Shown here: piece by piece, positions 12,990 to 54,457 of the stretch
How positions within the stretch are numbered: the stretch's first letter is position 1
Layout of the letters: each line of letters starts with the position of its first letter
Assembly (NCBI GenBank): GCA_030706685.1
Contig: JAUZOA010000004.1
Location: 62,001 to 126,000, forward strand
Direction of reading: 5' to 3'
Length of the DNA stretch: 64,000 nucleotides
Source of the DNA: Bacteroidota bacterium
GTDB taxonomy: Bacteria > Bacteroidota > Bacteroidia > Chitinophagales > Chitinophagaceae
Program-made: the position numbers and the translations under genes
The notes under the pieces: generated by a model
Told to the model about the DNA's origin: nothing
What the model saw: only the letters and a program-made list of their open reading frames with translations
Database searches by the model: none

Positions 12990-13622
12990 ATGAGATCAAT
13001 CCTCCTTTTTTTATGCATCTTAATTGCTTCCGGATGCCGGTCACCCCGTATTACGACAGCCTGGAAGGCAGATCACGCTGCCCCTTTAAAATACAGTAAG
13101 ATTGTTGTAGTGGGGATAACTAAAGGGGGAGATGATTCGCTGAGAGTGCAGGTGGAGAGATACTTTGCCCTTGCTCTTAACAACCTCGGCTATAAAGCGG
13201 TTTCCGCAGTCGTTGAATTTGGCCCGAAAGGATTAGCCAATCTTGGGGAAGTGGATACTTACAGGAAACTTTGTAACGATGGAATTGATGTGGTAATGAC
13301 TTTCGCGTTGATTGACGGGAATAAGGAACCCCGGCAAAAATATCGTAAGATTTATGGCTATCCCAGCAATTATTATTACAACCGTATCTGGAACTATAAG
13401 AACATACTGGCCGACATGACCGGGGATAATAACACCGGCGACCGCTATTTCTGGGAAAGCATCTTATTTAACCTGAACACGCTGGAAGCTGAGTGTACCA
13501 TACAAACAAGATCATTCAAGGATATCAGGCTGGCGAAAAGGACACATGAATTTCAAATGCAGGTCATACAAAAAATGATCAGGGAAAAGGTATTGGAAAA
13601 ACAACCACCTAAACCATTCTAG
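12990..13622 (+). CDS. Conserved lipoprotein of unknown function (DUF4136-like appearance)
   Basis: The ATG at 12990 gives a classical lipoprotein signal, MRSILLFLCILIASGC; the earlier ATG at 12951 would place a charged segment ahead of it. The mature part begins with TTAWKADHA and continues with KIVVVGITKGGDDSLRVQVERYFALALNNLG, a pattern also seen in small Bacteroidota envelope lipoproteins. The function is unknown. It is the first gene after the pectin operon and a TGAY-N4-RTCA palindrome lies upstream, so it may be the left edge of the stress island. Confidence 0.7.
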   Translation: MRSILLFLCILIASGCRSPRITTAWKADHAAPLKYSKIVVVGITKGGDDSLRVQVERYFALALNNLGYKAVSAVVEFGPKGLANLGEVDTYRKLCNDGIDVVMTFALIDGNKEPRQKYRKIYGYPSNYYYNRIWNYKNILADMTGDNNTGDRYFWESILFNLNTLEAECTIQTRSFKDIRLAKRTHEFQMQVIQKMIREKVLEKQPPKPF

Positions 13623-13703
13623 TAGTGAGTAGTGAGTGGTGAGTGGTCAGTGGTCAGTGGTGAATGGTGAGTAGCTGTTCCCACTTATTTACTCACCACT
13701 CAC
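13622..13703 (+). repeat. Low-complexity GTGAGTGGTGA repeat with inverted copy
   Basis: Tandem variants of GTGAGTGG/GTCAGTGG/GTGAATGG run from the stop codon of the lipoprotein gene to about 13673. A perfect 13-bp inverted match, GTGAGTGGTGAGT (13632-13644) with ACTCACCACTCAC (13691-13703), could fold into a long-loop hairpin. No T-run follows, so it is not a typical terminator. Related wording occurs at 5681-5706. Confidence 0.6.
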
Positions 13704-52968: not shown

Positions 52969-53454
52969 TCAATTTTGTACCGGTCGTTTTGTGATCCCCT
53001 GCGCTTCCGGATCAAGCAATATTTCACTGTGATAAAACACCTCAGCATTTATTGAATTGGTGATAAGACAATACTTATGCGTTTTCTCAAGGGCTTCAGT
53101 CGCTTTTTCCCGCAGGGTTTCGTCAGAGATATAGACTTTTGGATAGAGATTGATATGGGTAAACTTGTATTTACCTTCTGCGATTTCGATCTGGCCGATG
53201 ATATTGCATTCAAAATTTGAAATTTGAATCCCCAGTTTGCCGGCAAATGAAAGATAAGTGGTCATAAAGCAACTGCTGATCGCACTGAGGAAAAAATGTT
53301 CCGGCGTCCAGGGTTTTCCTTCTCCGCCGAATTTGGGCGGAGTTGCTACATGCAAGGTGCCGGCCGCGTCTTTCGCTCTGAGCATTCCTCTTTTAGCGGC
53401 CAGCCAGTTTAGCTGCACTTCAAAGAAAAATTGCTTTTCGGTTTTGCCCTGCAT
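52969..53454 (-). CDS. OsmC/Ohr family peroxiredoxin-like protein
   Basis: A 161-residue protein with the OsmC pattern: KFGGEGKPWTPEHFFLSAISSCFMTTYLSFAGKLGIQI containing one cysteine, and a later cysteine in HKYCLITNSI. OsmC/Ohr proteins reduce organic hydroperoxides through a Cys pair, here about 55 residues apart. It has an exact-match CRP/FNR-type promoter on its strand. The thioredoxin gene downstream could serve as reductant. Confidence 0.9.
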   Translation of the reverse strand: MQGKTEKQFFFEVQLNWLAAKRGMLRAKDAAGTLHVATPPKFGGEGKPWTPEHFFLSAISSCFMTTYLSFAGKLGIQISNFECNIIGQIEIAEGKYKFTHINLYPKVYISDETLREKATEALEKTHKYCLITNSINAEVFYHSEILLDPEAQGITKRPVQN

Positions 53455-53473
53455 AAAGCATTATTTAATGATA

Positions 53474-53516
53474 CAAATCTATATCCCGGAAGATGGCATA
53501 GCAATGACCCCTGTCA
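53474..53516 (-). promoter_or_regulatory. CRP/FNR-type site plus -7 box for osmC-like gene
   Basis: Palindrome TGACCCCTGTCA (53505-53516) and exact minus-strand -7 box TAGATTTG (53481 down to 53474); spacing 29.5 bp. Start codon at 53454. Confidence 0.75.
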
Positions 53517-53638
53517 TTATAAGGAGTGATATAATAAAATGATCATCCCGGCATCAACCGGGGATTATGATCGCAAAACAGCAGGGGCCTGTACGCTTCA
53601 GTAAAGGAGCAAAAAAGAAAATAGATGGTAGCTTCTCC

Positions 53639-53847
53639 CATACCTCTGGCATAGCTCCGGAATACTTCTGCCATACCTTTAGTATACCGCGTGTATGAAA
53701 ATGGTATGCCTCTGCCATACCTCTCCGATACGTTCCCCATACCTCGGGCATACGTCTGGAATACCTTCCCCATACCTCTGGCATACCTTTCCCATACGGG
53801 AACCATACGGAAATGATACGGAAGCCATACGGAAACCATACGGAGAC
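53639..53847. repeat. Tandem array of nineteen 11-bp units
   Basis: Nineteen consecutive units of exactly 11 bp, without a single indel. Typical units are CATACCTCTGG and CATACGGAAAC; the core ATA(C/T/G) is near-constant and the last six bases vary. Unit 1 starts at 53639, unit 19 ends at 53847. The period equals about one DNA helical turn. Because 33 bp is 11 codons, all three minus-strand frames show 11-residue pseudo-repeats such as RYARGMGKVF, which are probably not translated. The remainder of the 565-bp gap 53455-54019 holds the OsmC promoter and AT-rich DNA. Confidence 0.9.
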
Positions 53848-54019
53848 CTGATCTTTCTTTCTATATATCAATAGTTTAGATTTTTTCTCTTTTGCAAATC
53901 CTTGTATACCAATAATTAAAAAATCGAGAGAATGACCAGAATACCGGAATTCCTTCCAATATGAAGTGTCAGCAATAGAAAAAGGGGAGAATCCTTATGA
54001 TTGTATCAATTTAAGGTAT

Positions 54020-54457
54020 TTAAGCCAGCCATTTACCTTTCAACTGTAAAGAGACCAGGATGATCGCGACGCCGGTGGCAAGGTATATGAAATGAAGCCA
54101 GTTGGCTGCTCCAAGCAAAAGTAATTGTATAATGATCCAAACTGTTATTATGATGCCTCCTGCAAGCGACCAGTTGTACCTGTTTGCCCTGCGCCCCATA
54201 TTGGAGAATACCGCAAGGAAATTTGTTCCCCCCACTACCACGGCCAGGAGAATCCCTGGTACGAGGAAATCTTTGAAAGGAGTTGGTTCCAGGTAACTTA
54301 CTGGTAAATTCAATGAACTGCCATCCGGGCGACCTATCATTAATAAGCCGCTGAAAGTGGCCGTCAGCGCGATAAAAGATACCAATAAAAATAAAAGCGT
54401 TTTCATAATAAATGCTATTTGCAGACACCCATAGAGGAAAAAATCGTGAAAATCCAC
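54020..54457 (-). CDS. Small multi-pass membrane protein of unknown function
   Basis: A protein of 145 residues from 54457, or 128 from the ATG at 54406 (MKTLLFLLVSFIALTATFSG), which looks the better N-terminus; the promoter position permits both. Four hydrophobic helices, with the polar segment GRPDGSSLNLPVSYLEPTPFKDF between the first two. Not recognised. An exact-match CRP/FNR-type promoter precedes it. Confidence 0.7.
   Translation of the reverse strand: MDFHDFFLYGCLQIAFIMKTLLFLLVSFIALTATFSGLLMIGRPDGSSLNLPVSYLEPTPFKDFLVPGILLAVVVGGTNFLAVFSNMGRRANRYNWSLAGGIIITVWIIIQLLLLGAANWLHFIYLATGVAIILVSLQLKGKWLA

Follow-up and report, generated by a model that had tools for sequence, protein, structure and literature searches.

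A 19-unit, 11-bp tandem array in a Chitinophagaceae genome: a probable solo member of a helix-phased element class tied to DUF6266 and 250-aa-family genes

The tandem array at positions 53639–53847 (plus strand) of the window, the whole 64,000-nucleotide stretch of Chitinophagaceae DNA analysed here, is most plausibly interpreted as a solo member of a class of helix-phased cis elements tied to two kinds of gene, those encoding DUF6266 proteins (PF19781) and those of a 250-aa protein family whose members start like MAKQKGIVKLEGTIADLTFYKSQDGYLAREKGG. Reading the sequence in 11-mers from 53639 confirmed the original prediction of 19 units with an exact 11-bp period and no indel, built on the core (C)ATAC, and Tandem Repeats Finder reported the array in three overlapping rows (period 11 with scores of 59 and 79, and period 33 with a score of 117). 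Unit identity at lag 3 (33 bp) is 0.61 and thus not above the 0.64 at lag 1, so a 33-bp higher-order unit is poorly supported. The original prediction also held that the core is kept while bases 6 to 11 vary freely. The first part stood, with A2 and T3 invariant (19/19 each), A4 and C5 each kept in 17 of 19 units, and C1 in 12 of 19; the second did not, since positions 6 to 11 are variable but constrained and differ between the left and right groups of units, those on the left being mostly CTCTGG/CTTCCC-like and the last five having a GG start followed mostly by purines. Unit orientation turns inside the array at an internal inverted pair, CATACC...GGTATG, which was read from the sequence at 53672–53708. 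Of the 91 chunks of 700 bp into which the window was divided, four exceeded a tandem score of 17. No other tandem in the window comes near the array in strength, and its chunk alone has period 11 (76.5); the runner-up chunk scored 36.5 with period 7.

The array class came to light through its period and its genes and not through BLAST searches with whole elements. Among 20 array loci from relatives, six hold genes of the 250-aa family and one a DUF6266 gene, and an array locus on contig C15 of the window's own genome likewise holds a 250-aa-family member. In a reverse survey, genes were chosen by protein, and the 500 bp upstream of script-chosen start codons were scored at every period from 5 to 45, with a score above 15 as the threshold. 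Among 73 Chitinophagaceae loci of the two families, several of them close paralogs, a period of 10 or 11 was found upstream in 40 (period 11 in 31, period 10 in 17, and periods 12 and 13 in none), and 33 had no array at threshold. Downstream of the same genes, the count for period 10 or 11 was 0 of 69. Broken down by origin, arrays of the 250-aa family stood at 9 of 27 tool-chosen best matches and at 14 of 18 loci hand-picked in gene-rich genomes, 17 of these 18 being in genomes with array-like patterns noticed beforehand: the own genome, G114, G134 and G132 (the last by way of the reversed control pattern). For DUF6266, the counts were 13 of 24 loci in relatives and 4 of 4 in the own genome. 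Setting aside the 18 hand-picked and the four own DUF6266 loci leaves arrays at 22 of 51. The survey scored only these 27 tool-made and 18 hand-picked loci among the matches to the 250-aa family, with nine matches of the DUF6266 search from other genomes unscored. Removed from the set were L129, L135 and L138, which had first come up via their arrays; L159, which repeats the gene of L150; L161, for which tblastn gave no hit; L290 and L292, whose genes are incomplete; and L300, whose start was misplaced. The broken gene L171 was kept.

Background windows of 500 bp held period 10 or 11 in 10 of 800 cases in the own genome (G000), 8 of 800 in G114, 1 of 800 in G024 and 0 of 800 in G010. For period 12 or 13 above 15, the background counts were 2, 3, 5 and 7 of 800. 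In the own genome, arrays precede all four DUF6266 genes (period-11 scores of 49 to 75) and all four testable genes of the 250-aa family (scores of 17 to 43), one of which, on C15, was met through its array; a fifth, at the end of contig C111, was left unscored. Period 9 outscores period 11 on C76 (49 versus 41), and period 22 does so on C170 (25 versus 17). The link was also visible between genomes: the 250-aa family is present in 15 of 18 genomes with the four-unit ATAC pattern versus 37 of 129 others (Fisher p 1.2e-5, with genomes not listed as family matches counted as negative and correct matching of the two samples assumed). Unit sequences are unlike from gene to gene, and the pitch is still 10 to 11 bp. 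The loci L143, L281, L284, L294 and L298 have 10-bp or 20-bp arrays rather than 11-bp ones.

An earlier pass over 700 bp with the 250-aa family alone gave period 11 above 17 at 16 of 45 loci upstream and 0 of 43 downstream; in one with DUF6266 alone and cruder starts, 9 loci had it upstream and 1 downstream, each out of 26. The array-gene link thins outside Chitinophagaceae. For class-wide DUF6266 loci outside the family Chitinophagaceae, two of ten scored above 17, one of the ten having a misplaced start. A close ortholog group of 80 loci from Chitinophagaceae and Flavobacterium had only short, weak arrays. In this group, period 11 exceeded 17 in 3 of 79 loci upstream, 0 of 79 downstream and 0 of 67 far upstream, and 11 was the top period in 21 of 79 upstream versus 3 of 79 downstream and 5 of 67 far upstream. 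A profile comparison found no relationship between DUF6266 and the 250-aa family (probability 0.3%), so one shared mechanism for both is a guess. We found no paper on DUF6266 in the open-access literature searched. The 250-aa-family loci L131 and L133 have exact 600-bp cores in common with Lacibacter cauensis and Limnovirga soli, both Chitinophagaceae. Phage records contained no homolog at E 1e-5, and plasmid records contained one, on Marivirga plasmid p1 (L406, 890–4178), where a DUF5675 gene comes after the 250-aa-family gene and a site-specific integrase lies about 1.6 kb upstream. The 250-aa-family gene itself is absent from the gene table of PLSDB, which is incomplete.

The original prediction that such arrays may be dispersed in related genomes was borne out, and searches found them dispersed in the own genome too. 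Four ATAC cores at 11-bp pitch were found in 22 of 195 Chitinophagaceae genomes, and the same pattern gave 58 (overlapping) matches in the own genome versus 3 for a reversed control. The array therefore has relatives and is not the one-off sequence that had been named as a refutation. Further unit types occur in the own genome: F2, with the unit ATACTGRAGTT, whose 15 loci include three at contig ends; F3, of the GGCTTAT type; F4, of the GGGTCAGG type; and a AAAGACGGATC type. Two of these occur both with and without a gene. F3 accompanies a gene on C15 and stands alone on C175 and C188, and the AAAGACGGATC type lies beside four DUF6266 genes and is solo on C1. A 400-kb sample of the own genome, drawn from large contigs chosen regardless of arrays and thus not strictly random, contained six loci with period 11 or 22; scaled up by proportion, the genome would have about 86 array loci (95% interval, 32 to 187). 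In samples of equal size, G114, with at least 18 members of the 250-aa family, had seven period-11 arrays scoring at least 20; G024, in which neither gene family was found, had no period 11 and one weak period 10; and G010, with one 250-aa-family member, had neither period. At one of the six loci in the own-genome sample, L317:11328–12093 on contig C1, three segments of period 11 or 22, each with its own unit type, lie within about 765 bp and are overlapped by a 121-aa frame. The other kind of tandem array that is common in these genomes has a 7-bp (heptad) unit, with one example at 13621–13672 of the window; near both gene families heptad arrays occur at 9 of 69 loci downstream versus 5 of 73 upstream. 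The open-access literature searched yielded nothing on 11-bp helical arrays upstream of genes in Bacteroidetes and nothing relevant on 11-bp repeats in Flavobacterium.

The window array is part of a family, F1, of which searches with the array and its flanks found seven copies on seven contigs of the own genome, the window copy included. The segment 53838–53930 matches five places in the genome at 83 to 100% identity, itself included, with three more matches at chance level; of the other two F1 copies, the one on C171 shares the right flank and the one on C172 does not. We compared four of the seven copies in six pairs and found that 8 of 8 gaps within the array are multiples of 11 (11, 22, 88 or 99 bp), with substitution between copies of 7 to 19%, whereas the flanks of the same copies have gaps of 1 to 6 bp. 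Together with class periods of 10 and 11 and not 12 or 13, this comparison agrees with the original claim that spacing is kept while content changes. Gain or loss of whole units by recombination would equally yield gaps of 11, which we count against a role for phase. As to the remaining copies, L056, a decayed fifth one, has two 1-bp indels inside the array, L057 has one 33-bp gap, and L058 is a short stretch only. The whole F1 element had no BLAST match beyond the own genome at E 0.001 in 58 relatives, with at most 12 candidates scored per genome. No gene-linked F1 copy was found, and membership of F1 in the gene-linked class therefore rests on period, length and the parallels of F3 and the solo copy on C1. 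By the parallels of F3 and the AAAGACGGATC type, F1 would descend from a gene-linked array.

The window copy is intergenic, 185 bp upstream of the start codon (53454) of an OsmC-like gene (52969–53454, minus strand; Pfam match PF02566). Beyond OsmC on the left lies a thioredoxin gene, and on the right a frame at 54020–54457 without a Pfam match. The seven frames scanned near the array comprise thioredoxin, OsmC, a polysaccharide deacetylase, a P-type ATPase and three unmatched frames, two of which overlie the array itself; no DUF6266 or 250-aa-family gene adjoins it. In two congeners with the same gene order (L307 and L308), the array is absent from the same intergenic site, and the spacer from OsmC to the next gene measures 87 and 89 bp versus 565 bp in the window (53455–54019). 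We favour a lineage-specific insertion of about 480 bp, as judged from these sequences: the segment was either gained in the window lineage or lost in the congeners, and gain is favoured because F1 copies are dispersed. The inserted element would extend approximately over 53541–54019 (plus strand), with ends that were judged by eye to within about 20 bp; when aligned globally by script, the gap fell into pieces and the insertion ends stayed unfixed. Its left flank (53541–53638, plus strand) is partly shared with other F1 copies, in an A-rich block and GGTAGCTTCTCC just before the array, and its right flank (53848–53930, plus strand) is kept in other copies. Copies of F2, a single copy of F1 and an array of a third type in the own genome (L090, L091, L097, L102, L103, L058 and L187) have in common an end motif like ATGACTATCCGTGTATATCAGCCGG, a possible element boundary. 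When 37 own-genome stretches were scanned with up to six mismatches, the motif occurred in 7, of which five are F2 copies, one is an F1 copy and one is of another kind, and we rejected it as a general boundary.

These comparisons do not support a regulatory tie to OsmC, upstream of whose promoter the original prediction had placed the array. The insert is missing from two relatives with the same gene order, so the array is no evident control site for OsmC, and arrays of the class associate with other genes. The object is real and the kind of constraint proposed for it is right, and the neighbour is the wrong one.

Considering the period, the gene association and the solo copies together, we arrive at an explanation in which our confidence is evenly balanced: a DNA-level cis element made of weak putative protein sites, one per turn, with the home array linked to a gene and the window copy a solo. 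The arrays are probably docking strips for a putative DNA-binding protein, and by analogy with phage Apl/Xis or BldC the element is most likely operator-like, with one putative protein per helical turn. Each array would be a row of weak sites on which copies of a small DNA-binding protein might sit adjacent on one face of the helix and spread cooperatively. In its home setting, the array stands upstream of a DUF6266 or 250-aa-family gene, with unit sequences that vary between genes, and when coated would control the gene behind it; the copy in the window would be a solo, lineage-specific one that was inserted between OsmC and the next gene. Because periods of 10 and 11 bracket the helical repeat and none occurs at 12 or 13, the DNA appears to be read from one face. 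Binding, cooperativity and regulation of the home gene we infer from this helical period and from the following precedents.

Recombination directionality factors are described as binding direct repeats spaced 10 to 11 bp, weakly at single sites and with high cooperativity between neighbours, and as bending the DNA (PMC7498355). Operators of these factors (phage 186 Apl, lambda Xis and P2 Cox) resemble the arrays in having direct repeats one turn apart (10 to 11 bp for Apl), several in a row, and in occurring in a promoter control region as well, although Apl is reported to have five to seven sites and the window array has 19 units (PMC7498355). The window array has direct repeats at the spacing of 10 to 11 bp that marks these operators; unlike them, it has no integrase among the seven frames scanned beside it. 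BldC of Streptomyces is described as forming head-to-tail multimers on direct repeats of loose consensus one DNA turn apart, and its operators share with the arrays a variable repeat number, multimers one turn apart and an A/T-rich loose core (PMC5859096, PMC11963761). Compared with the BldC sites described there, the arrays here are longer, their unit sequences vary from gene to gene and their solo copies are dispersed (PMC5859096, PMC11963761). Helically phased operators have so far been known singly, from phage excision factors and BldC, and here there is a natural series of many loci, with unlike units at the same 10-to-11-bp pitch before two kinds of uncharacterised gene. Such a series makes the role of the DUF6266 protein, and the sequence drift that a recognised phased array tolerates, directly testable. 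The parC centromere of plasmid R1, which contains the ParR sites, also has tandem 11-bp direct repeats around a promoter, and a ParR/parC centromere is defined by adjacent parM and parR genes. The window array differs in that neither gene was among the seven frames scanned beside it, and the arrays here are dispersed and by estimate number in the dozens.

We considered which protein might bind the arrays. A small conserved gene encoding 63 to 67 aa (MERVCIYPKDVQIVTGKSERWGR...) has a homolog within 77 of the 80 fetched loci of the ortholog group, and in aligned loci it is divergent to the main gene and close to a short array. In the loci examined, L205:2589–2777 (minus strand) and its equivalents, no more than about 20 bp separate the start codon of this gene from a short ATAC-type array. 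The protein had no Pfam match over the cut-off, and its high-confidence model is mostly helical (mean pLDDT 95) with no clear fold match, Foldseek giving none at E ≤0.001 and a second comparison a best Z of 3.6. We found no relative of the gene in the own genome, so the protein is unlikely to be a general binder, and we rejected it as a universal one. The other candidate is the product of the gene behind the array. For the 250-aa protein, the model is poor (mean pLDDT 58), its better part being a beta-sandwich in the C-terminal half. The model had no Foldseek match at E ≤0.001, and in a second fold comparison the beta-sandwich gave a Z of 8.2 with an rmsd of 3.2 over 111 residues. We treat the predicted beta-sandwich as a common, generic arrangement with nothing in it pointing to DNA binding. 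PDB sequences matched the 250-aa family at a best E of 0.63, and PHROGs had no match for three proteins.

The original prediction had also raised intrinsic curvature as a reason for constant phase. In a wedge model, 43% of shuffles were at least as curved as the window array, which does not favour curvature for this copy. Curvature exceeding shuffles was seen in another F1 copy (2%), in two DUF6266-linked arrays and L317 (0/200 each), and in L373 (1%), and was missing in F2 (99%), F3 (51%) and F4 (21%). We therefore rejected curvature as a general property of the class.

The dispersal of F1 might instead reflect a miniature mobile element, moved by an unlinked transposase, that carries a minisatellite as a passenger without a role of its own. 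As in a MITE, F1 has several dispersed copies (seven) and a site that is empty in two congeners, and an end motif is weakly common to F2, one F1 copy and the third array type. There is also a precedent in BrickBuilt of Porphyromonas gingivalis, described as a MITE with a 23-nt minisatellite (PMC4596501). Like the arrays here, BrickBuilt is reported from Bacteroidota, is intergenic and dispersed, and has a spacer-free array that changes by whole units; it differs in its 23-nt unit, as against 11 bp and many unit sequences here, and in its small inverted-repeat ends, and the available text describes no link to a gene family (PMC4596501). For F1, inspection by eye suggested short GATTTGCAAAAC-like ends as candidate terminal inverted repeats. 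A passenger without a role leaves unexplained why unlike units have period 10 or 11 and why arrays stand before particular genes, and we consider this account rather unlikely.

If the array acted as RNA (or as a cruciform), a transcribed long hairpin would have an 11-nt unit matching the A-form turn. In the window copy, folding of the GTAT strand surpasses that of its shuffles (z −4.1; over the longer stretch 53600–53935, z is −3.35 on the minus and −0.67 on the plus strand), F3 and two arrays of G134 fold very strongly (z −5.3 to −10.1), and the arrays before DUF6266 genes of the own genome contain inverted arms near the start codon. However, z was below −3 on either strand in just 9 of 45 arrays, and we rejected RNA folding as a common denominator of the class; a consistent strand-specific fold was likewise not seen, with 0 of 15 F2 copies below −3. 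The other F1 copies gave z of −1.1 to −2.8 on the GTAT strand, 10-bp periods, which occur too, better fit the phasing of B-DNA than A-form RNA, and no Rfam match reached the gathering score in the window. An RNA role is therefore improbable in our view.

To a similar degree we doubt that the protein encoded behind each array binds that array, with arrays and proteins diverging as private pairs. Unit sequence varies from gene to gene, yet the four DUF6266 paralogs of the own genome, which are identical in 168 to 196 of 206 aligned columns, have one unit type common to all, and ATACTTTATCC-like units recur among Chitinophagaceae and Flavobacterium orthologs of the 250-aa family. Shared descent alone would yield the same pattern. 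The arrays moreover stand at two families between which profile comparison found no relationship, and the 250-aa model is as weak and generic as described above. A fuller form, in which each gene and its own array form a pair whose unit drifts while phase is held, coated by the encoded or a co-diverging protein, and from which solo copies escape by the dozen, seems to us distinctly improbable; if true, Bacteroidota would have a set of DNA-coating systems in these pairs, self-addressed and orthogonal to one another.

Neutral tandem duplication, with 11 bp an accident of replication slippage and no function, is very unlikely. Unequal exchange does produce whole-unit changes, and 7-bp arrays are common in these genomes too. 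Against this stand the preference for 10 to 11 over 12 to 13, the position upstream and not downstream of genes, and the phase retained in copies that have diverged by 7 to 19%; the 500-bp background windows speak against an equal frequency upstream of random genes.

Finally, an 11-residue protein repeat is scarcely credible and in our view already refuted: two open frames on the minus strand, 98 and 105 aa long, span the array, but neither has a Pfam match, and because unit number changes among copies in 11-bp steps, which shift any reading frame, no frame is kept and the array is not coding, so that the translated domain named by the original prediction as a refutation did not materialise. 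For annotation, the two frames covering the window array are a caution that such arrays open spurious reading frames.
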